A stretch of DNA of 64,000 nt from Gemmatimonadota bacterium (lineage in GTDB: Bacteria > JAAXHH01), in the NCBI GenBank assembly GCA_026702745.1, contig JAPPBT010000066.1, positions 1-64,000 on the forward strand, written 5' to 3'. Positions 6,311 to 61,853 of the stretch are shown one piece after another. Every line of letters starts with the position of its first letter. Within the stretch, counting starts at the first letter, position 1. Under the pieces are notes generated by a model. That model saw only the letters and a program-made list of their open reading frames with translations, ran no database searches and was not told the origin of the DNA. The position numbers and the translations under genes were made by a program.

Positions 6311-7420
6311 ATGGGTACCTTTGTGTTACGCAGATTCCACGTCTTGCTGACGGTCCTGATGCTCGCCGCCTTCCCGGCCGCCGCGCAGGAAAACGGCGGG
6401 GATGACATGGAGACGGAAGGCGGTGGCACCGCCATCTCCGGCCTGGTCGAAATCTCGGGGTTCGTAGACGCCAGCTACACCTACAACAGTACGGATGATG
6501 CAAACTCATTCGGCCTCGACCAGGTGGAGATCGATCTCTCGAGGAACCTGGGCGATATCGGCTCGTTGCGCACGGATCTGGAGTGGGTGAGTGACGGCGA
6601 GGGCGGGTTCACCCTCGACGCCGAACAGGGGTACGTGACCCTGGATCTCGGGCTGGGCCGCGGGGAGGGGAACTACCCGACCCTGACCTTCGGTAAGTTC
6701 AACGCGCCCATCGGGTTCGAACTCCTGGACGCCCCGGACATGTACCAGTATTCCCACTCGCTGGTCTTCAATAATGGACTGCCCACCAATCTGACCGGCG
6801 CCATGCTGTCCATGGACTTGGGAGGAGGTTTCGACGTGGTGGTTCACCTTACGAACGGATGGGACCAGAACGTCGACACCAATACCAACAAGATGATCGG
6901 CGGCAGACTCGGATATAGCCATGACGATATGGGCGGCATCGGCTTCTCGGCGATGCGCGGCGACCACGAGGACCCGGTATACGGCTCGGACTTCGTACTG
7001 GTCAGCAATCTGACCGTATACGACATCGATCTGACCCTGACGCCGATCCCGAGATTCATCATCGGAGGGGAGTACAACAACGGTAAAAAAGAACTGGCTG
7101 TGTCTGAAACAGTACTCAACTGGAACGGCTACTTGGTGATGGCGCACTACCGTCTGACCGACGTCATGGGGTTAACGGGCAGGTACGACTATTTCAACAC
7201 CTACTCCACCATTACGACACGAGGGGGCAGAATGAACGTTTTTTCAATAACCCGTCAGGCCCTCACCATAGCACCGACGTTCGCGCTGACCGACGGCCTG
7301 GGGTTCCTCATGGAACTCCGCCGGGATTTCTCCTTCTATGAGCGCGATAAGGGTTCCGGCGAACGTGAGGATGAGGAGTCGATGGTCAATTTCGCCTTCG
7401 AGATGACCTATTCGTTCTGA
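6311..7420 (+). CDS. OmpL-like beta-barrel porin, copy 2
   Basis: A 369-residue paralogue of the preceding porin, 48 bases downstream and probably co-transcribed. The signal peptide, the long N-terminal part and the C-terminal MTYSF are nearly identical to copy 1. The differences concentrate in an insertion after the signal peptide (GGDDMETEGGG) and in the parts that would form later strands and loops, such as around residues 220-310. The start at ATG 6311 matches copy 1 by DNA alignment; ATG 6305 is also possible. The pattern fits recent tandem duplication with loop diversification, which could change solute preference or antigenicity. Confidence 0.8.
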   Translation: MGTFVLRRFHVLLTVLMLAAFPAAAQENGGDDMETEGGGTAISGLVEISGFVDASYTYNSTDDANSFGLDQVEIDLSRNLGDIGSLRTDLEWVSDGEGGFTLDAEQGYVTLDLGLGRGEGNYPTLTFGKFNAPIGFELLDAPDMYQYSHSLVFNNGLPTNLTGAMLSMDLGGGFDVVVHLTNGWDQNVDTNTNKMIGGRLGYSHDDMGGIGFSAMRGDHEDPVYGSDFVLVSNLTVYDIDLTLTPIPRFIIGGEYNNGKKELAVSETVLNWNGYLVMAHYRLTDVMGLTGRYDYFNTYSTITTRGGRMNVFSITRQALTIAPTFALTDGLGFLMELRRDFSFYERDKGSGEREDEESMVNFAFEMTYSF

Positions 7421-7430
7421 TCCGGACGAT

Positions 7431-7475
7431 CCGCCTGGTCCGCCTGGTCCCGCCCGGTCCGTCCGGTCCGCCCTA
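7431..7475. repeat. Imperfect 9-bp GC-rich repeat after porin 2
   Basis: The gap between the convergent porin 2 and TsaC-type genes holds several imperfect CCGCCTGGT/CCGTCCGGT units. The same CCGG/GGTCC-type core recurs in other minisatellites of this window. No clear hairpin with a T tract is seen. Confidence 0.55.
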
Positions 7476-7532
7476 CCTGAAAGGTTTGATACCTCCGCCC
7501 CGGACTGAACGGGACGACTCCTCGGGACCGCT

Positions 7533-8165
7533 TCAGTACAGATCGGCTTCGCCGGCACTCGCCCGCAGGATCTCGGGCTCCTCGCCGGTCAGATCGACCA
7601 CCGTGGACGGCTCCGGAACAATGACGCCGCCGTCCACGATGACGTCCACGACCTTGCCGTACCGGGCCGCGATGGAATCGGCGTCGTTCATATCGCTTCC
7701 GTTAGCTGAGGCCTCAATACCGGAAGGCGCGATGCTGGTACTCAGCACGGGCCGGCCGAGCGCCTGCACGATTTCGAGGCATATCCGGTTGTCCGGCACC
7801 CGGATACCCACCGTCCGGCGCTTGCCGATCATGAACTTCGGCACGTCTCTCGAGGCCTCCAGAATGAAGGTGTAGGGGCCGGGCAGCAGGCGCTTCATCA
7901 TGCGGTAGGCCGCGTTGGAGATGTTCTTCGCGTACCGTGCGAGATCCTTCAGATCCGAACAGACGAAACTGAGCGGCTTCCCGGCGGGAGCTTGCTTGAT
8001 CTGGTAGATCCGGTTGATGGCCTTGCGGTTGAAGATATCGCAGCCCAGTCCGTAGACCGTGTCGGTCGGATACACGATCACGCCACCCCGATGCAGGGCT
8101 TCGACGACCCGGTCGACATGCCGTTTCTGGGGATGTTCGGGATGGAGTTGGAGGATAGCGGCCAT
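7533..8165 (-). CDS. L-threonylcarbamoyladenylate synthase family (TsaC/Sua5/YciO)
   Basis: A 210-residue YrdC-fold protein. The family motif YPTDTVYGLGCD is at residues 33-44 and KxxPxGKPLSF-type residues follow (QAPAGKPLSFVC). SxPPSG-like residues appear as STSIAPSG. TsaC makes threonylcarbamoyl-AMP from threonine, bicarbonate and ATP for the t6A37 modification of ANN-decoding tRNAs. The length and motif variants also allow the YciO subgroup, which may not do this as the main job. It is the last gene of a minus-strand set behind the threonine aldolase, so both products act on threonine. Confidence 0.85.
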   Translation of the reverse strand: MAAILQLHPEHPQKRHVDRVVEALHRGGVIVYPTDTVYGLGCDIFNRKAINRIYQIKQAPAGKPLSFVCSDLKDLARYAKNISNAAYRMMKRLLPGPYTFILEASRDVPKFMIGKRRTVGIRVPDNRICLEIVQALGRPVLSTSIAPSGIEASANGSDMNDADSIAARYGKVVDVIVDGGVIVPEPSTVVDLTGEEPEILRASAGEADLY

Positions 8166-15654: not shown

Positions 15655-15726
15655 CCGATGCCGGGGGATCTGAAACACACCGGCCGTGCGTTATGAAAGT
15701 TGCCGGCCGTACTCAAGGAGGAAGGC

Positions 15727-16752
15727 ATGCAGGCACTGATGTATCTGGGAACGCGCCAGATGGAAATGCAGGAGGTTGAAGAGCCCACGGTCACGCCCGG
15801 CCACGCCGTGCTGAAGGTCGGCGCGGCGAGCATATGCGGTTCGGACCTGCACGGCTTTCTGGGCAAGAGCGCAAAGCGGGTCCCGCCGCTGATCATGGGA
15901 CACGAATTCACCGGCGAGGTGGTGGACCTGGACCGTGGCGCGGAAGGGTTGTCCGTCGGCGACCGGGTCACGATCAACCCGATCCTCTCCTGCGGCCGGT
16001 GCGACGAGTGCCTCCGGGGACGCACCAGTATCTGCCCCCATCGAACGGTCATCGGCATCGAGCATCCCGGAGCCTTCGCCAACTACGTTTCCGTGCCAGC
16101 GGCGTCCTGCTTCAGGCTGCCGGACCATGTGGGCGACCTCGAGGGCAGCATGGTCGAATCCCTCTCGAACGCACTGCATATCTTCGACCGAAGCCTGCAC
16201 GGGTTCATCCGGAGCGTGGCCGTCATCGGCGCGGGCACCCAGGGGCTCCTCGCCCTGCAGGTGGCCCGGCACATCGGGGCGACCCGCATCGCGGTGACGG
16301 ACAGGGTGCCCTCGCGCCTGGCGCTGGCCACTTCGATGGGCGCGACCCACGCCATCGACGTCCATGCGGACGACCCCGTGGAAGCCGTGTTCGACATGAC
16401 GGACGGCCAGGGGGTGGATCTGGCGGTCGAAGCGGTGGGCCACACGGCGACGCAGGAACAGGCCGTGCGGATGCTGCGGCAGGGCGGCGAGGCCGTGCTG
16501 CTGGGCCTCGGCGCCGAAGCGCCCATGGCCATCGACGGCGTAGCCATGGTGAACAGGGAACTGGTCGTGCGCGGTTCCTATGCCTACACGAGCGTGGACT
16601 TCGCCTATTCCCTCGAACTCATCTCCACGGGAAGGATCGACGTCGCCTCCATGGTCGTCGAAAGGGACCTGGAGCAGGGACCCGGGATTTTTACGAAACT
16701 GGTGGACGACCCCGGCGACCTGATCAAGGTGGCGCTGGTGCCGGGTTCCTGA
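15727..16752 (+). CDS. Zinc-dependent medium-chain dehydrogenase (sorbitol/threonine DH type)
   Basis: 341 residues starting at ATG 15727, which has an excellent AAGGAGG site; the frame is open nine codons further upstream. The catalytic zinc region reads ICGSDLHG and GHEFTGEV. A structural zinc site is present as four cysteines in CGRCDECLRGRTSIC. The NAD(P) site is AVIGAGTQGLLALQVARH. The family oxidises polyols, sugar alcohols or threonine; substrate cannot be set. It follows the EpmA-like gene by about 70 bases and may be expressed with it. Confidence 0.85.
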   Translation: MQALMYLGTRQMEMQEVEEPTVTPGHAVLKVGAASICGSDLHGFLGKSAKRVPPLIMGHEFTGEVVDLDRGAEGLSVGDRVTINPILSCGRCDECLRGRTSICPHRTVIGIEHPGAFANYVSVPAASCFRLPDHVGDLEGSMVESLSNALHIFDRSLHGFIRSVAVIGAGTQGLLALQVARHIGATRIAVTDRVPSRLALATSMGATHAIDVHADDPVEAVFDMTDGQGVDLAVEAVGHTATQEQAVRMLRQGGEAVLLGLGAEAPMAIDGVAMVNRELVVRGSYAYTSVDFAYSLELISTGRIDVASMVVERDLEQGPGIFTKLVDDPGDLIKVALVPGS

Positions 16753-16821: not shown

Positions 16822-19800
16822 TCAGCGGTCCGGACCGTGCAGCCGCAGGGCATTTCTGAAGCGCTCCTGGGAGACCCAGCGCGTGTTGTATGCACTTCGG
16901 TACGCGCGAAGGCCGGTATCGTCCGGATAAAGGGATGCCGGACCGTAAGGGTAGCCGGCCATCCCGTGGAAGGGCAGCGGTTCGATCGTGGCGGCCGTCG
17001 CCGTGTTCAGATCGCCCTCCTTCAACCAGCCGTCGGTGTGCAGGATAAAGTCCCTCGTCCAGCCAGGCGGCGGTTCAGGCAGGTCGGCCGCATCGAAGGT
17101 CACCTTGATTTCCTCGCCCGAACTGTAGATGACATAACGGTTGTCGGATGCCCGTAGCAGGGGCGTCACGTCGCCGTACCGCGTCCGGTATCCCGCGAAG
17201 GGCAACCACTGGGGTTCGCCGCTCAGCACCTGGTAGTCCCGGATAAACGGGCCATATAGCGCGGTCCGGTACTCCCGCGAGTAGCCGCGGTAGTGCAGAT
17301 CCGCGGTATCGGGCGACAGCCGGGTGATGCGGTTTTCGACCCGCTTGGGTTCGTCGACGGTGAAAAAGGCCTCGCTCCAGTACAACTCCAGGTTCGTGGT
17401 CAGCCTGACCCGGTAGTCTTCGGCGGGAAAACGGTCCGTCACATCGATGAAAACGGTCTTGTGTTCTCCCGATGGAAAGCCGGTGTACGGTATCACGGTC
17501 CTCCACTGCCCCTCACCGTCCGGCACTTCCAGGTACGGAGGGACCACGGCGGCGTCGCTGCGCTGAGACAGGGCCAGGTTGGAACTGGGCTCGATCGGCA
17601 TGATCCAGCCGCACAGGTACAGGTGGATCCGGTCCGCACCTTTCAGGTCGCCAAGGTCCATCGTGATGGAATGCACTTCGGGAACGCCCTGGAAGTCGCC
17701 GAGTCGGTAGTCACCAACGTACAGGCTGTCCCGGGCGGCGAGGGCGGGCAGGATGTCGTTGCCGCGGTGGTCGCGGGCCGCTACGGGCAGGCGCGGGTCC
17801 GTCACCGTATGGATTTCGAGATCCGGGTAGGGCGGCGGGAGGTACTTCTCATCCACGAAGATATCCGTCTCCGCCGGGTGGTCGACGACCAGCAATTCCA
17901 TTTTGTCCATGTACACGGCGTCCCACAGTTCCTCCACGACCCGGACCTCGAACTTCCCGTTTCGCATCCGCAACTGGTCGCCCCGGATTTTCACATAGTC
18001 GTTCGCGGCGTCCGGCCAGGCCGGCGCGCCGGTTTCCGTCAGGGCGCCGATGGCGCTCCGGGTCATCAGGTGGGTGACGAATACATACCGGTCGCCGTTC
18101 CAGGTGTACAGCGACGGGCACGATCCCTTGAGCCGCTGCGGTTCGACGACGAGCGTCCGGGATTCCGGATCGATCCGGTTCTGGGGGACGCCGTTGCTCC
18201 AGACGACCCGGATCACGTCGGCCGTATCCCGGCTACCGAGACCGACGTGGGTGACGGCCGCGTCGACCCGCAGAGACTGGTAATGCGACCCGGCGTTTAC
18301 CTCTATGGTCGATCCTATGCCATAGAAATTGTTCTTCCCGCTTCCTTCCAGGGCCGCGGCGAGCTGTACCTTGAGCCAGCCGTTCGCGTTGCCGCCGTCG
18401 TTCCGCAGCACCAGGGGACGGCCATCGGAAAGCACTGCGAGATCCAAGTCGCCGTCGTCGTCCAGGTCGCCGACCTCCACGTCAGCGACGTTCCCGGGCA
18501 GACGGGGTAGCAGGTCGGCCCGTTCTTCAAATGCACCGTTGCCCAGGTTCCTGACCAGCCTGAGTCCCGACAGGTCCGGCACCGAAGCGCCGGCGAGCGC
18601 GAGATCGATGAATCCGTCATTGTCGAAATCGAAGGGCCGGACGACAACGACATCGAGGCCGTCACAGGCGTCGCCGAACGCCGGGGGCGTGTCCTCCCCG
18701 TCGAATCCGCGCCCGTTGTCGTTCCACAACAGCCGGCAGCCGTCGGCGGCAGTCCCCGCCATGAAGAGATCCAGTGCACCGTCGTTATTTAAATCGGCCG
18801 CGGCGACCGTCTTCGCGCCGCCCCACCGGATTCCGCGGAAACGTTCCGTCCAGTCCACCCACCTGCCCTGCCGCAGGTTCCGGTAGTACCGGTGCGCGCC
18901 GTCGTCGAACAACGCGATTACGTCCACGGCCCCGTCCATGTCGAAGTCGCCCCAGGCCAGCGACTGGCCGGACCGCAACCTGGAATCACCAGCAGAGGAA
19001 ACACCATCAGCGTTCCGGCCGAGAGCGCCAGACGCCGATTCGAGGAAACCCGTGGCGGATGTAGCTTCTTCAAAAACCCCGTCCTCGGTGTGTCGATAGA
19101 ACCGAAGTGAGCCCATATTGGATTCCAGGATATCCAGGTCCCCGTCGTGGTCGAAATCCGCCCGGGAGGCGGAGGTGAAGGACTCCGGATTCTCCCCGGG
19201 GTCCAGGGTCTGTGCCAGGCCGAATGTCCCATCCCCATCGTTGCGGTACAACTGGGGTGACGGTGTGCCGGCTACCAGCATGTCCATATCGCCGTCATTG
19301 TCGAAGTCTCCCGTGGCCAGTTGAAAAACCGCGTCTCCCTGTGCCGGTATCGATTCCTCCCGACCCGACCATGGACTCGAAACGGTCTCCCGGCTGTCCA
19401 GGGGGCTGCGCAGTACGAACAGCCCTTGCCGACCCGCCAGTGCCAGGTCCAGCCGCCCGTCCCCGTCAACGTCCGCCAGTGCCAGGTCCGTCCATTGCTC
19501 CTCTTCAGGCAGGATACTATCAATCCATACGTCGCCCGCATCCACGAACTGTATATCAACGAGGGAATCCGCGGCCACTACCGCCAGGTTGGGCGGCGCC
19601 GTCCGGAAATCGTAGAGCGGGGGCGACTGCTGCGAAGGATCCCCCAGGCGGTCCCGCGAGGCCCGGTAGGCCGGGTCCACCACCAGCAGGTTGCCCAGGA
19701 TGCCCGCGCTGGATTCGGCTTCCGCTCCATCCCCGCGATCCAATGCATCTAACGTCCGGTCCAACCAGGTTTGAATGTCTTCTGGAACGGGTTCGAGCAA

Positions 19801-20421
19801 CCCGGACATCCGCCGGTACCCGGCCGATGCTTCCTGCGACCGCCCCAGCCGGACCAGGGTGGCGTTCAATTCAACGAGCACGGCCAGGTTTTCCGGTTCG
19901 TATTCGAGCATGGCCTGCAGCTCTTCCAGGGCATCCTCCTCCTGGAGATCCGGACCCCGCAACCTTCTCAACTCGGTGAGGTACTTGTACCGGAGCACCA
20001 CGTCGGACGCGTTGAGGCCAACGGCATGGGCCAGCAGGCCCAGGGCGGCTTCGCGATCTCCCCGCGCCGCCACGATGTCGGATTTGATGGAAAGGACTTC
20101 ACCGTCTTCCGGGGCAAGATCCACGGCCCGGTCGACGGAGGCGGCGGCCTGCTCGTAGTCTCGAAGTTTCAACAGCGCCAGGGCCCGGTTCGCGTGACCG
20201 AGCGGCTCGCGAGGCACCAGCCGGGCTACCGACTCGAAGGAACCCGCCGCGCCTTCCAGGTCATTCCGATACAGGTAGGCCAGCCCGGTGTGCTTCGCGG
20301 AAAGGGCTTCCTCCCACACTTCGCGGGAAGGGGCGGACTCACCACAGCCCGCGAGCAGGCACGCGGCCATCGTTATCCACGCGGTCATCGACATTCCCGT
20401 AACGCCGTTTACCATCCGCAT
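16822..20421 (-). CDS. Giant TPR + FG-GAP/VCBS + ASPIC/UnbV lipoprotein
   Basis: 1,199 residues. The start at 20421 follows a GAGGT site, and a signal peptide ends in the lipobox LLAGC. Residues about 30-220 are TPR-like helical repeats. Residues about 285-660 contain FG-GAP/VCBS repeats with calcium-binding DxDxDGxxD loops (for example DVDGDGRLD, DFDNDGDMD, DLNNDGALD). An ASPIC/UnbV module follows (NNFYGIGSTIEV, SLRVDAAVTHVGLG). The last 430 or so residues are not recognised. Such proteins are thought to be cell-surface or periplasmic propellers binding partners or carbohydrates. It is the last gene of a long minus-strand string, 26 bases after the IMP cyclohydrolase gene. Confidence 0.85.
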   Translation of the reverse strand: MRMVNGVTGMSMTAWITMAACLLAGCGESAPSREVWEEALSAKHTGLAYLYRNDLEGAAGSFESVARLVPREPLGHANRALALLKLRDYEQAAASVDRAVDLAPEDGEVLSIKSDIVAARGDREAALGLLAHAVGLNASDVVLRYKYLTELRRLRGPDLQEEDALEELQAMLEYEPENLAVLVELNATLVRLGRSQEASAGYRRMSGLLEPVPEDIQTWLDRTLDALDRGDGAEAESSAGILGNLLVVDPAYRASRDRLGDPSQQSPPLYDFRTAPPNLAVVAADSLVDIQFVDAGDVWIDSILPEEEQWTDLALADVDGDGRLDLALAGRQGLFVLRSPLDSRETVSSPWSGREESIPAQGDAVFQLATGDFDNDGDMDMLVAGTPSPQLYRNDGDGTFGLAQTLDPGENPESFTSASRADFDHDGDLDILESNMGSLRFYRHTEDGVFEEATSATGFLESASGALGRNADGVSSAGDSRLRSGQSLAWGDFDMDGAVDVIALFDDGAHRYYRNLRQGRWVDWTERFRGIRWGGAKTVAAADLNNDGALDLFMAGTAADGCRLLWNDNGRGFDGEDTPPAFGDACDGLDVVVVRPFDFDNDGFIDLALAGASVPDLSGLRLVRNLGNGAFEERADLLPRLPGNVADVEVGDLDDDGDLDLAVLSDGRPLVLRNDGGNANGWLKVQLAAALEGSGKNNFYGIGSTIEVNAGSHYQSLRVDAAVTHVGLGSRDTADVIRVVWSNGVPQNRIDPESRTLVVEPQRLKGSCPSLYTWNGDRYVFVTHLMTRSAIGALTETGAPAWPDAANDYVKIRGDQLRMRNGKFEVRVVEELWDAVYMDKMELLVVDHPAETDIFVDEKYLPPPYPDLEIHTVTDPRLPVAARDHRGNDILPALAARDSLYVGDYRLGDFQGVPEVHSITMDLGDLKGADRIHLYLCGWIMPIEPSSNLALSQRSDAAVVPPYLEVPDGEGQWRTVIPYTGFPSGEHKTVFIDVTDRFPAEDYRVRLTTNLELYWSEAFFTVDEPKRVENRITRLSPDTADLHYRGYSREYRTALYGPFIRDYQVLSGEPQWLPFAGYRTRYGDVTPLLRASDNRYVIYSSGEEIKVTFDAADLPEPPPGWTRDFILHTDGWLKEGDLNTATAATIEPLPFHGMAGYPYGPASLYPDDTGLRAYRSAYNTRWVSQERFRNALRLHGPDR

Positions 20422-26298: not shown

Positions 26299-27546
26299 AT
26301 GATTCGAAGGTCCTTTATACACATGGCTACGAGTGCCCTGGCCGCGACAGGAATTGCGTTCCTTGCGGTCGCGTGCGCGGACATGGAGGTGGCTGAACAG
26401 ACCGCTGACGCTGACGCTGACGCCGACGCCGTGATGGCGCCGATGTTCGAGGTGGACCCCCTGTGGCCCAAGCCGCTGCCCAACCACTGGATCCTGGGTT
26501 CCGCCATCGGCGTAACCGTCGACGCCAACGACAACATCTGGATCATACACCGCGGAAACGGTAACCCGAGCACGGAACTGGGCGCTGCGCAGGACCCGCC
26601 CGTGGCCGAATGCTGCATTCCCGCGCCGCCGGTACTCCAGTTCAGTCCCGAGGGCGATCTGTTGAACCATTGGGGCGGACCGGGAGAAGGATACGACTGG
26701 CCGGGTTCGAATCACGGGATTACCGTCGACCCGATGGGTAATCTATGGATCGGCGGCAACGGGGGCGACGACGCCCACATCCTGGTTTTCGCCCAGGACG
26801 GCACCTTCCTGAAGCAGTTCGGCGAACCGGGCGCGCGAAGGGCCGATGGCTTTGACGAGGCCGATCCGGCGTGGAGTGGCAACAGCATGGATCCGGGGAA
26901 TTTCGGACGTGTGGCCAAGATCTCCTTCGATGCCTCCGCGAACGAAGCCTATGTGGCCGATGGGTACCTGAACAAGCGCGTTGCGGTGCTCGACATCGAG
27001 ACCGGGGCCCTGAAGCGGTACTGGGGCGCTTACGGCAATGAACCTGATGACGCCAATATCGGTAGATACGATCCCAAGGCGCCGCCGGCCCAGCAGTTCC
27101 GCAATCCCGTCCACGCGGCCGATCCCTCGAACGACGGTCACGTATACGTCTGCGACCGGCCCAACAACCGTGTCCAGGTTTTCCGGACGGACGGCACCTT
27201 CGTGATGGAGAAAGTCCTCTCCGGCAACACGCTGGGCGCCGGGTCTACCTGGGACGTCGCCTTTTCAAAGGACGCGGACCAGAAATACCTGTACGTGGCG
27301 GACGGCCAGAACATGAAGGTGTACGTGCTGTTGCGGGAGACCATGGAAGTGCTGACCACTTTCGGAGACGGTGGCCGCCAGCCGGGCCAGTTCTTCGGCA
27401 CCCATAGCATCGCGACCGATTCGAAGGGCAATATCTACACCACGGAGACCTACGAAGGCAAGCGCGTGCAGAAGTTCACCTATATGGGTGAGGGCCCGGT
27501 CGATCAGCAGGACCAGGGCGTGATATGGCCCTCCGCATCCCGGTAG
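26299..27546 (+). CDS. NHL-repeat lipoprotein (peptidyl-amidating-lyase-like propeller)
   Basis: 415 residues. ATG 26299 follows a GGGAGG site. The signal peptide ends in the lipobox FLAVAC, followed by an acidic ADADADADA linker encoded by a 6-bp DNA repeat. The rest is an NHL-type beta-propeller (blades such as NHGITVDPMGNLWIGG, VYVCDRPNNRVQVF, SIATDSKGNIYTTETYEGKR), like the lyase domain of peptidyl-glycine alpha-amidating enzymes. In bacteria these are common secreted propellers of unknown substrate. Its end overlaps the next gene by 22 bases, so translation of the two may be coupled. Confidence 0.8.
   Translation: MIRRSFIHMATSALAATGIAFLAVACADMEVAEQTADADADADAVMAPMFEVDPLWPKPLPNHWILGSAIGVTVDANDNIWIIHRGNGNPSTELGAAQDPPVAECCIPAPPVLQFSPEGDLLNHWGGPGEGYDWPGSNHGITVDPMGNLWIGGNGGDDAHILVFAQDGTFLKQFGEPGARRADGFDEADPAWSGNSMDPGNFGRVAKISFDASANEAYVADGYLNKRVAVLDIETGALKRYWGAYGNEPDDANIGRYDPKAPPAQQFRNPVHAADPSNDGHVYVCDRPNNRVQVFRTDGTFVMEKVLSGNTLGAGSTWDVAFSKDADQKYLYVADGQNMKVYVLLRETMEVLTTFGDGGRQPGQFFGTHSIATDSKGNIYTTETYEGKRVQKFTYMGEGPVDQQDQGVIWPSASR
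26401..26432. repeat. 6-bp in-frame repeat encoding an Ala-Asp linker
   Basis: Repeated GCTGAC/GCCGAC hexamers encode alternating Ala-Asp right after the lipoprotein cysteine region of the NHL protein, giving a flexible acidic tether. Confidence 0.7.
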
Positions 27547-29000
27547 GCACGACGGATCGGGTCTCTCCTCTTACGGGACGACGGACGGCGACCAGCCGGG
27601 TTGCCGTCCGCGTCCTGCTTTTCCTGGCCATAGCCGGACTCACGGCAGCCGTGCCGTCACCCGGCGCCTTCGGCCACGACATCCCCTCCGACATCACGGT
27701 ACGCGCTTTCATCAAGCCGGAAGGCCAGCGCCTCAGGATGCTCGTGCGCGTACCCCTCGAGGCCATGGTCGACGTCACCTTTCCTCTGACCGGCCCCGGC
27801 TACCTCGACCTGTCCCGCGCCGACGAGTCCCTGCGTGACGCCGCCATGCTGTGGCTCGGGCAGGAGGTGGCGATCTACGAAGACGGATCGCGCCTGGCCG
27901 TGCCCGAACTGATGGCCGTCAGGGCCTCCCTGCCTTCCGATCCATCCTTTCAAGCGTACGATTCCGCGCTGGTTGCCACCCGGGGGCCGCCGCTCCCGGC
28001 CGGTACACAGATCTTCTGGCAGCAGGTCATGCTGGACGTGCTCTTCGAGTACCGGATCACATCGGATCGTTCGGAGTTTTCGATTCTCCCCGGACTCGAA
28101 AGGCTGGGTATGCGGGTCTCGACCGTGCTGCGCTTCCTGCCTGTTTCAGGGGGCGAACGTCTCTACCAGTATACCGGTAATCCGGGCCTTGTCGTACTCG
28201 ATCCCCGCTGGCACCAGGCCGCGTTTCGTTTCGTGCAACTCGGTTTCACCCACATCCTCGACGGCATGGACCATCTCCTGTTCCTGCTGTGCCTGATCAT
28301 CCCCTTTCAGCGGCTGCGCGTACTCGTGATCCTCGTTACGGCCTTTACCGTTGCGCACTCGGTCACGCTGGTCGCTGCCACGCTGGGCCTGACGCCCGCC
28401 GCCCTTTGGTTCGTCCCCCTCGTGGAAACGGTGATCGCCGCCTCCATCGTCTACATGGCACTGGAGAACATCGTTTCGCCCGGCCTGCGCCGGCGCTGGA
28501 TGGCCGTATTCGGGTTCGGACTCGTGCACGGATTCGGATTCGCCTACGCGCTGCGGGACATGCTGCCTTTCGGCGGAGATCACCTGGTGGTCTCGCTGCT
28601 GGCGTTCAATGTGGGGGTCGAGATCGGTCAGCTACTCGTGATTCTGATCTGTGTCCCGATACTGCGTTTACTCTTCAGGTACCTTCCGGGTGAGCAACCC
28701 AGGCAAAGTATGCAGGCCGGCAAGATCGGGCAGACCGGACGGACCGGATGGACCGGATGGACCGGGCATCCCAGGCGGATCGCCGCGGTCATCCTCTCGG
28801 TCCTCGCGGGTCATACGGCCTGGCACTGGCTGGTGGAGCGCGGCGCCGTGTTGTGGGAATACGATGTGCTGGCCACGACGCCGGACAGCGCGCTGTATGG
28901 AGTGGCGGGACTCCTGGTACTGATGTTGATCATCGCCGCCTTCGCGGGATGGGCGTTCCTTCGTTCTGACCGGGCGGACCGGACGAACCGGTCTGATTAG
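27525..29000 (+). CDS. HupE/UreJ-2 family membrane protein
   Basis: 491 residues. A signal-like hydrophobic segment (about 27-45) precedes a 200-residue extracytoplasmic domain. The C-terminal half has six or more membrane helices with the HupE/UreJ_2 hallmarks FTHILDGMDHLLFLLCLI and GLVHGFGFAYALRDM. Histidine-rich relatives take up nickel or cobalt for hydrogenase or urease, but this long two-part form is mostly uncharacterised and no metalloenzyme gene is nearby. The loop GRTGWTGWTG and the C-terminal DRADRTNRSD are both made of minisatellite DNA; the stop codon lies within the first copy of the 49-bp array. Confidence 0.8.
   Translation: MALRIPVGTTDRVSPLTGRRTATSRVAVRVLLFLAIAGLTAAVPSPGAFGHDIPSDITVRAFIKPEGQRLRMLVRVPLEAMVDVTFPLTGPGYLDLSRADESLRDAAMLWLGQEVAIYEDGSRLAVPELMAVRASLPSDPSFQAYDSALVATRGPPLPAGTQIFWQQVMLDVLFEYRITSDRSEFSILPGLERLGMRVSTVLRFLPVSGGERLYQYTGNPGLVVLDPRWHQAAFRFVQLGFTHILDGMDHLLFLLCLIIPFQRLRVLVILVTAFTVAHSVTLVAATLGLTPAALWFVPLVETVIAASIVYMALENIVSPGLRRRWMAVFGFGLVHGFGFAYALRDMLPFGGDHLVVSLLAFNVGVEIGQLLVILICVPILRLLFRYLPGEQPRQSMQAGKIGQTGRTGWTGWTGHPRRIAAVILSVLAGHTAWHWLVERGAVLWEYDVLATTPDSALYGVAGLLVLMLIIAAFAGWAFLRSDRADRTNRSD
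28735..28770. repeat. 9-bp in-frame repeat (Thr-Gly-Arg/Trp)
   Basis: Imperfect ACCGGACGG/ACCGGATGG units encode TGRTGWTGWTG in a loop between membrane helices of the HupE/UreJ-like protein. Confidence 0.65.
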
Positions 29001-29163
29001 GCGGGCTGGCCAGGCTGACCGGGCGGACCGGACGAACCGGTCTGATTAGGCGGGCTGGCCAGGCTGACCGGGCGGACCGGACGAACCGGTCTGATTAGGC
29101 GGGCTGGCCAGGCTGACCGGGCGGACCGGACGAACCGGTCTGATTAGGCGGGCTGGCCAGGCT
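28968..29163. repeat. 49-bp minisatellite, 4 perfect copies, between convergent genes
   Basis: Four identical 49-bp units start at 28968, 29017, 29066 and 29115, and an 8-base partial unit follows at 29164. Each begins GACCGGGCGGACC. The first unit encodes the last residues and TAG stop of the HupE/UreJ-like gene on the plus strand. The last unit encodes the last residues (PGQPGQPA) and stop of the unknown gene on the minus strand. The two middle copies are non-coding. Confidence 0.95.
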
Positions 29164-29752
29164 GACCGGGCACTTCAATGAAGGCTTCGGACAGCGCGAA
29201 CACGCAGGAGCTGCGCTCTCCGCCGAGACTGGGCTTCCATATATCGACCGGATAGGGTTCGCCCGGAATCATGTGACCGTTGAACATGATCTGGGCGGAC
29301 CGTGCAAAGTACAGGCAGGAGAAAACGTCCCATCCTTCCCGGAATCTCGGAGCGGGCGCTTCGAGCAGTTCGGGAGACCGCAGGCCGCCCCAGCGGGCGA
29401 TGACCTGGTCTTCCTCCGTTTCGATCGTCCACGCGGGCGCGTCGAGCACGTTGCCGCTCCGCGTGAAGGAAGCCGGCACCACCTCCAGTTCCATGTCGTA
29501 CATGCCGCCCCGGCCGCTCATCCAGGTCTGAATGAATGTAGTCATCTCCGGGTTGTCGGTGCAGATCCTGTGATACGAGAATCCATCCTCGATAAGGACA
29601 TAGGCCACGGTCCCTTCGCCGGCCGAACAGTAGTGCGTATGCCAAAGGCTGACCATCGCACTGTTCTCCCCGGCACCCGCGGGACGAACATAGTTGATCC
29701 AGTGCTGTCCCGTCCAGAACAGCCTGCCCGGGTTGACGATCGGCCTGTTCAT
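29144..29752 (-). CDS. Conserved-looking protein of unknown function
   Basis: About 202 residues from ATG 29752, chosen for its GGAGG site eight bases upstream; the longer frame runs into the 20-bp repeat array and is not coding. No signal peptide or membrane helix is seen. The sequence is rich in Trp, His and Tyr (LFWTGQHWINYV, WHTHYCSAGEGTVAYVLIED), has a YHRICTDNPEM segment and an MFNGHMIPGEPYP segment, and looks like a compact mixed or beta fold. I do not recognise the family. Its C-terminal residues come from the 49-bp minisatellite. Confidence 0.6.
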   Translation of the reverse strand: MNRPIVNPGRLFWTGQHWINYVRPAGAGENSAMVSLWHTHYCSAGEGTVAYVLIEDGFSYHRICTDNPEMTTFIQTWMSGRGGMYDMELEVVPASFTRSGNVLDAPAWTIETEEDQVIARWGGLRSPELLEAPAPRFREGWDVFSCLYFARSAQIMFNGHMIPGEPYPVDIWKPSLGGERSSCVFALSEAFIEVPGQPGQPA

Positions 29753-29771: not shown

Positions 29772-29851
29772 GCGTAGCCGGTCCACGGTCCGCGTAGCCG
29801 GTCCACGGTCCGCGTAGCCGGTCCACGGTCCGCGTAGCCGGCCCATGATCC
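29772..29851. repeat. 20-bp minisatellite, 3 perfect + 1 degenerate copies
   Basis: Units starting GCGTAGCCGGTCC lie at 29772, 29792 and 29812; a degenerate copy follows at 29832. The array is directly upstream of the unknown gene at 29144-29752, where promoter or leader signals would be expected, so copy number could alter its expression. Confidence 0.85.
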
Positions 29852-30101
29852 GCGAAATCGCTCACGGCCCGAATCCATGTAAACTGATCCGGGTGGGGCC
29901 GGACGTCAAGGGCGGACTGGGAGACCGGCCGGCGAGGCCCTTGCGAGCGGCACTTCCTCTCAGACCTTCCGCATAAATCGCTTGCCCGGTTTCGGTCCGT
30001 CCTGTACATTTTCCGCATCGGGTCTTACAATCGGGAGGCCGGGCAATAAGGTTAGTTCAAGCAAGCGGGCGGTCTTTCTCTCACTCCAGGAGCCAAACGG
30101 C

Positions 30102-60416: not shown

Positions 60417-61853
60417 TCAGTTCGGTGCCGCTTTGACCGTCGTATTGAAACGCAAGCGAACAGGCTTAGCACCTGTCGACATTAACGTAATGATAGTCGA
60501 CCGTGTACCAGCGCTCAAAGCAGTATCGCCGGTCAACGCCCCAACAGGAGTAACAGTGACTACAGCACCCGCTTCAGTCGTAGGGGCTACTGGTGTGTTA
60601 ACAGTGGCCACGGTTTCGTCAGACGACATTACGGTAACAGACCCCGCGATGCGTTCTGATGATATTGCGTCATAGAGATCCACTGTAAAGGTAATCGTCG
60701 CCGGATCCCAAGCAGGCGCATCATCACCAAGATCGGCTTCAAAAGTGTTGTTGGGCACAGACGAATCAGACGCTGTTATAAGCCTGGTCGTAACCTGGCC
60801 ACTGACTACTACGTCGATGTCTTTGCTTGCAGGGTCGCCGAGTTCGCCTTCACCCATGACCATAACCGTGACCATAGTTTCGCCAGCCCCCCTGCCGGTA
60901 ATGATAGCAGAATGGGTCTTTATATCCTTGGCGGGCTTGTAGTTGTGGTCCCGGAGTGCGACGGTGGCCACAGAACCGTTGCCGTGTGTCCACTTGAAAC
61001 CGCCGCGCGGCGTAAGCGGATCGTTATTCTTATCACGGGCTACAGCCTGAATCACGTTATAAGATTCGTCCGCAGCCAAGAACAACTCTGCGTCCTGAGG
61101 CGCGAGGTCATCTTCCGCGACGGTTTTGGTCTTGTCAGCGTCGCCCTGATGGAGGGTGATCTTCGTGATGGGATTGGTGACCGTGTAGTTAAGGTCGCCA
61201 GCTATGCCAACGAGCGCAGCCGTGGCCCTGATGACGGTATTACCCACCTTGGCGGCCTCCAGCATGGCCATGCTGGAGTCGTCTGCGTCCACTTCCGTGT
61301 TTACGGCGTTGTCCGGGTCCTTGTGCTCGGTCATCGTAACTTCGATACTCTCAAGTATCTTTTCACTCTGAGAGCGGACAACGGCACGGACCATGCGCTC
61401 TTCGCCGATTCTTAGGGTCTTCTGAAAGCCTCCACCTACATCGGCTTCCGCGGCCTTCGCGTCACCTATAATAAAGGCGATATGGTCAGCTTGAGCGATT
61501 TCGGTAATGTCGATGCCCGGTATTCCTGTCTCACCGGGTTCACCCGCCGGACCCTGAGGACCTGCCGGACCCGTTTCACCCGTGTCGCCCTTTTCACCTT
61601 GAGGACCCTGAGGACCTGCCGGACCCGTTTCACCCGTTTCACCCGTGTCGCCCTTTTCACCTTGAGGACCCTGGGGACCTGCCGGACCCTGCGGACCTGC
61701 TGGGCCTGCTGCACCATCATGTCCATCATGGCCAGCCGGACCCGCCGGACCTGCCGGACCAGTCGCACCTGCCGGACCGGTTGCACCCGTCTTGCCTTCG
61801 CATCCCATTATGGACAATGCAAACGCAATAAATATGACTATGAGGTAGTGCAT
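60417..61853 (-). CDS. Collagen-like lipoprotein with Ig-like domains
   Basis: 478 residues from ATG 61853 (AGGAG upstream). The signal peptide ends in the lipobox SIMGC (Cys18). Residues 20 to about 112 are uninterrupted Gly-X-Y collagen repeats ([19 protein letters not shown] units, repeated in blocks at DNA level). The remaining 365 residues look like two or three bacterial Ig-like (Big_2) domains ([32 protein letters not shown]). It should stand on the cell surface as a stalk or adhesin. Base composition is lower in GC than most of the window. Confidence 0.8.

Follow-up and report, generated by a model that had tools for sequence, protein, structure and literature searches.

The window analyzed in this study, a stretch of 64,000 nucleotides from a Gemmatimonadota genome, contains a HupE/UreJ-type gene and a converging gene for a conserved uncharacterized protein, between which a perfect 49-bp tandem repeat supplies the stop codons of both. 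This array is, with a probability of about 0.78, a protein-neutral minisatellite; tandem duplication would have produced it at a place where the tails of the two genes overlapped in the ancestor.

The array was detected by TRF at positions 28966-29171, with no strand assigned (period 49, 4.2 copies, 100% match, score 412), and comprises four full copies (28966-29161) followed by a 10-bp partial copy. Its unit, CTGACCGGGCGGACCGGACGAACCGGTCTGATTAGGCGGGCTGGCCAGG, can be read as a row of five degenerate nonamers with 4 bp left over, and inverted copies of it were not found. With head-to-tail tandem copies and a unit length inside the range of about 10-100 bp (49 bp x 4.2, 100%), it has the structure of a minisatellite, and its TRF score is the highest in the 464 kb sampled from the genome of the window. 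The four perfect copies given at 28968-29163 in a preliminary description of this DNA are this array, its 4 x 49 bp being framed in a different register. The copies had also been called tail-to-tail, but this term applies to the genes, whereas the copies are head-to-tail direct repeats.

The plus-strand gene (27525-29000) is an open reading frame coding for a HupE/UreJ-type membrane protein of 491 amino acids (Pfam HupE_UreJ_2, E = 1.1e-43) with orthologues in the same genus. Its final residues, about ten (DRADRTNRSD), and its TAG stop codon are encoded by copy 1 of the repeat. The minus-strand gene (29144-29752) encodes the uncharacterized conserved protein, which has 202 amino acids counted from the ATG at 29752 and obtains its final residues, about eight (PGQPGQPA), and its stop codon from copy 4, so the earlier statement that the outer copies encode both C-termini and both stops was correct. 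The tetramer TTAG recurs every 49 bp, at 28997, 29046, 29095, and 29144. In copy 1 (28997-29000) it contains the HupE stop TAG (28998-29000), and in copy 4 (29144-29147) its TTA (29144-29146), read on the opposite strand, gives the TAA with which the minus-strand gene stops.

The start of the minus-strand gene is most likely the ATG at 29752 rather than the one at 29878, because homology and coding score begin at MNRPIVNPG and the region 29772-29854 is a separate 20-bp repeat. This repeat (4.2 copies by TRF) lies directly upstream of the gene, and similar 20-bp arrays of 2.3-2.5 copies lie upstream in the relatives G005, G001, and G002. The protein showed no match in Pfam or NCBIfam and no significant sequence match in the PDB. 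HupE itself contains a variable linker (28700-28790, plus strand), in which TRF reported a period of 9 (28733-28765). The linker is composed of TGQ/TGR/AGQ-like triplets and ranges from 4 to 40 residues across the genus, with 10 of 11 lengths being equal modulo 3, i.e., differing in 3-residue (9-bp) steps.

The effect of copy number on the two proteins was simulated in silico. From one to seven copies, the proteins of 491 and 202 amino acids remained unchanged, and only the gap between the stops varied (-4, 45, 94, 143, 192, 241, and 290 nt), the value at the present four copies being 143 nt. Copy number is irrelevant to the proteins because each unit carries TTAG, which is a stop on both strands (TAG on the plus strand, TAA on the minus strand). 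A single copy is enough to end both genes; in this simulated state they end in one TTAG (gap -4). At zero copies, both proteins are altered: HupE has 486 amino acids ending in RSDRALQ, the other protein has 208 amino acids ending in GQNEGTPIPRRRR, and the genes overlap by 56 nt. The neutrality claimed beforehand consequently applies as long as one copy is present and is lost with the last one. The zero-copy simulation leaves a junction of 73 nt, which is the length found in relatives. The relative G008 has precisely this layout today, with 486 and 208 amino acids, an overlap of 56 nt, and the ending GQNEGTPIPRRRR, which is also present in G002. Since removal of all copies recreates the G008 layout, the array is a clean 196-bp addition to a 73-nt junction of the ancestral type.

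The junction was compared in 11 genomes of the genus, namely that of the window and 10 relatives, in all of which the gene pair is syntenic; its length was measured between conserved protein anchors. It amounts to 73 nt in G003, G004, G007, and G008, to 82 nt in G002 and G006, to 91 nt in G011, to 136 nt in G010, to 167 nt in G001, to 194 nt in G005, and to 269 nt in the genome of the window. In eight of the 11 genomes the genes overlap by 29-65 nt, and the excess over 73 nt is 0, 9, 18, or 63, always a multiple of 9. The remaining three (G001, G005, and the genome of the window) show an excess of 94, 121, and 196 nt, each being 1 modulo 3. Both genes of G001 and G005 end in one CTAG with a 4-nt overlap (gap -4). 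Such a convergent overlap, formed by a single YTAR tetramer, was seen in these two genomes, whereas the stops lie 143 nt apart at the four copies of the window. The expansions at this junction in the relatives are long and non-identical.

In the preliminary description, relatives which lack the array and in which both genes end in unrelated ways had been named as evidence against its reading. Relatives do lack the array, and their HupE ends within the other gene, where TTGAATGAAGG supplies a TGA; this shows the array to be derived rather than absent. A shared origin of the three double-stop genomes was considered as well and set aside, as the single-locus tree of the two proteins, which is weakly supported, does not group or resolve them. 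There may have been several origins of the 1-modulo-3 shift, or a loss of it.

The following course of events would account for the locus. Comparison with the relatives shows a 73-nt junction of the ancestral type with genes overlapping by 29-56 nt, which the relatives have enlarged mostly by multiples of 9 bp. Tandem duplication acting throughout the genus, often in 9-bp steps, would have enlarged the overlap at this locus, too, before a unit with both stops was amplified. In the lineage of the window, an addition of 49 bp (five degenerate nonamers plus 4 bp, 1 modulo 3) would have shifted the reading frames, after which both genes would have ended on one TTAG with a 4-nt overlap, similar to the CTAG of G001 and G005. 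We infer this one-copy ancestor, a state which was not seen. Slippage or unequal exchange would then have raised the unit to four identical copies. A ribosome should stop in the first copy which it enters on either strand, so that only the distance between the genes would change. As every unit has a stop for both strands, selection on the proteins is not opposed to changes in copy number.

The genome of the window (G000) was sampled over 464 kb and relatives over 80 kb each to obtain genome-wide figures. In G000, 117 merged arrays were found, compared with 4 TRF rows in simulated sequence of equal length and the same dinucleotide content. Six genomes of the genus carry 10-29 TRF arrays for every 100 kb, versus 3.5 and 8.5 in two sister genera, which have a lower G+C content. 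A period divisible by 9 occurs in 41 of the 117 arrays of G000 but in none of the 24 arrays of the two sister genera. In the non-coding DNA of G000, self-identity is slightly raised at lags of 9, 18, and 27; the smaller samples of the relatives are too noisy to bear this out. Sequences resembling the nonamer were detected throughout the genus (12 of 12 genomes) and in 0 of 27 other genomes searched. A search for an over-represented nonamer word against a Markov model yielded nothing striking, the nonamer being degenerate.

The same step size is found in coding regions. Among indels of at least 3 amino acids in five relatives and the window, 91 of 134 distinct inserted segments have a length divisible by 3 amino acids (binomial p = 4e-16 if independent, which is only indicative, as related pairs are non-independent). 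The favoured indel lengths across the genus are 3, 6, 9, 12, 15, and 18 residues, i.e., 9-bp steps, and the inserted segments consist of degenerate triplets, such as TDETDRTDR, QVNRTGQANRAD, and ARDARDARD. Given this mutational habit, a locus like the one described here is to be expected, and it seems to be a side effect of a genome inclined to form repeats, not a new device. A mutational or insertion process specific to the genus which adds DNA in 9-bp steps, in genes as whole 3-residue blocks and also between genes, and which repeatedly resolves convergent overlaps via double-stop units, is conceivable, but we regard this wider idea as tentative and rather doubtful.

Repeat arrays are located at stop codons elsewhere, too. 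At co-directional junctions of G000, 17 arrays contain a stop and 5 the downstream start (p = 0.017), a count affected by the gene calls, which come from an in-house dicodon script instead of a published caller and are less sure for starts than for stops. A duplication straddling a stop leaves the protein intact at any length, and at a convergent junction it is neutral for both genes if both end together; such duplications persist because they are protein-neutral. The arrangement had been called unusual, but it is not unique, since stop-spanning arrays are common in the genus and G001 has a convergent double-stop array at another junction. That array (L068:4410-4501, 35 bp x 2.6) contains both stops of a convergent pair which is orthologous to the window genes 15700-16752 and 16822-20370. 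A preference of arrays for convergent junctions was examined and rejected, as their share per junction (11/52) is not significantly different from that at co-directional (36/261) and divergent (9/47) ones. Per spacer base, arrays are densest at convergent junctions in the sample of G000.

Further repeats and junctions of the window were recorded. At 1137-1192, a 20-bp array of 2.8 copies contains the stop of the gene 198-1151, which faces a convergent gene; relatives show gaps of 7 to 159 nt at this junction, and G001 has a similar 20-bp array. The convergent gap at 7420-7533 measures 99-132 nt in G000, G001, and G002 versus about 1.17 kb in G005, G008, and G007, which suggests that a gene may have been gained or lost there. 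Finally, tandem repeats with periods of 9, 18, and 63 bp are found at 61549-61787 inside the minus-strand gene 60417-61853, with a unit that, on this strand, looks collagen-like (Gly-Pro-X).

Instead of being neutral, the array might have been selected as a two-way terminator or insulator, the hairpins of which halt RNA polymerase arriving from either gene, so that collisions and antisense RNA between the two convergent genes are avoided. Its position between convergent genes agrees with this function, each 49-bp unit holds GACCGG-ACGAA-CCGGTC, and the plus strand of the array shows stronger folding than a control made of shuffled units in tandem (z = -3.6, 0/150). However, the minus strand is not clearly above the same control (z = -1.75, 8/150), and one unit by itself has only a slight advantage over its shuffles (z = -1.5 and -1.8). 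A z of -7.8 for the full array against plain shuffles was discarded, because that control ignores the repetition, for which the tandem shuffled units allow. An intrinsic terminator consists of a G+C-rich hairpin followed by a T run, and neither a T run nor a terminator-like site was found in 28700-29500. Moreover, most relatives have no spacer at this place, and their genes overlap. The folding of the plus strand could reflect selection on an RNA hairpin, but it might just as well promote slippage. We consider a selected terminator or insulator improbable and find no reason to assign a function to the array.

A mobile repeat element of the MIRU or REP kind, inserted at the junction and then multiplied, would explain why removal of all copies is exact and leaves the junction length of the relatives, and nonamer-like sequences are indeed dispersed in all genomes of the genus. 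Yet no near full-length unit occurs elsewhere in the genome, where the other matches are partial, mostly of 70-77% with short pieces of higher identity, and follow the shared nonamer. In addition, the junction sizes of the relatives are mostly stepwise multiples of 9 and do not point to one element, which makes such an insertion very unlikely. The copy number could also be an artefact of a draft assembly consisting of 102 contigs, with fewer or more copies in the true genome, since a perfect repeat of 206 bp is about as long as a short read. This is likewise improbable: the 90-kb contig extends far beyond the junction on both sides, independent relatives also carry long, non-identical expansions there, and assemblers usually collapse perfect repeats rather than expand them.

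As a neutral minisatellite, the array illustrates clearly how nature can pull an overlapping convergent pair apart while the proteins change only at their tips. Likely intermediates are found in sister species: from a plain overlap, the series leads over one that has grown in 9-bp steps and a single CTAG shared by both stops to the amplified unit. Of wider interest is the genus-wide excess of indels in 9-bp steps, as it suggests an unusual mutation process that is traceable across a dozen genomes.

Among known systems, MIRUs are located at gene boundaries, have little effect on the genes, and show a 4-nt overlap of signals; they seem to be mobile elements with insertion sites at start codons, where translation becomes coupled to the gene downstream (PMC12548453). 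The repeat of the window resembles them in its position at a gene boundary, its small effect on the genes, and the 4-nt signal overlap within each unit. In contrast to MIRUs, whose homologous units are dispersed at many loci, the full 49-bp unit is confined to a single locus, and it spans the two stop codons of convergent genes instead of coupling translation at a start codon, so the assignment as a MIRU was rejected. Satellites of prokaryotes are lineage-specific tandem repeats, many of them amino-acid repeats with periods divisible by three (PMC6749651). The repeats of the genus are lineage-specific as well, and many have a period divisible by three, but they mix coding and non-coding arrays and favour 9-bp steps; the detection criteria differ, so densities are not directly comparable.

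In the Mycobacterium tuberculosis complex, rnc and fpg1 are separated by MIRU-VNTR repeats, which are intergenic tandem repeats of variable length; the array is found in one lineage and extends from 40 bp past the stop of rnc to the start codon of fpg1, while in relatives the two genes are just a few bases apart (PMC2734929). Both loci are lineage-limited, repeat-expanded spacers at a junction that is tight in relatives. The locus of the window differs in that its genes are convergent and have overlapping orthologues, and in that both stops lie within the repeat. The locus works like a VNTR and is probably a neutral minisatellite of a known kind, represented here by one genome of the species; relatives belonging to other species vary in junction length. 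Four-nt convergent overlaps end in CTAA, TTAA, CTAG, or TTAG, the four possible tetramers (PMC2174442); the unit has TTAG from this set, and G001 and G005 have CTAG. Unlike in those overlaps, the tetramer of the window is part of a repeated unit, so that the overlap was turned into a gap.
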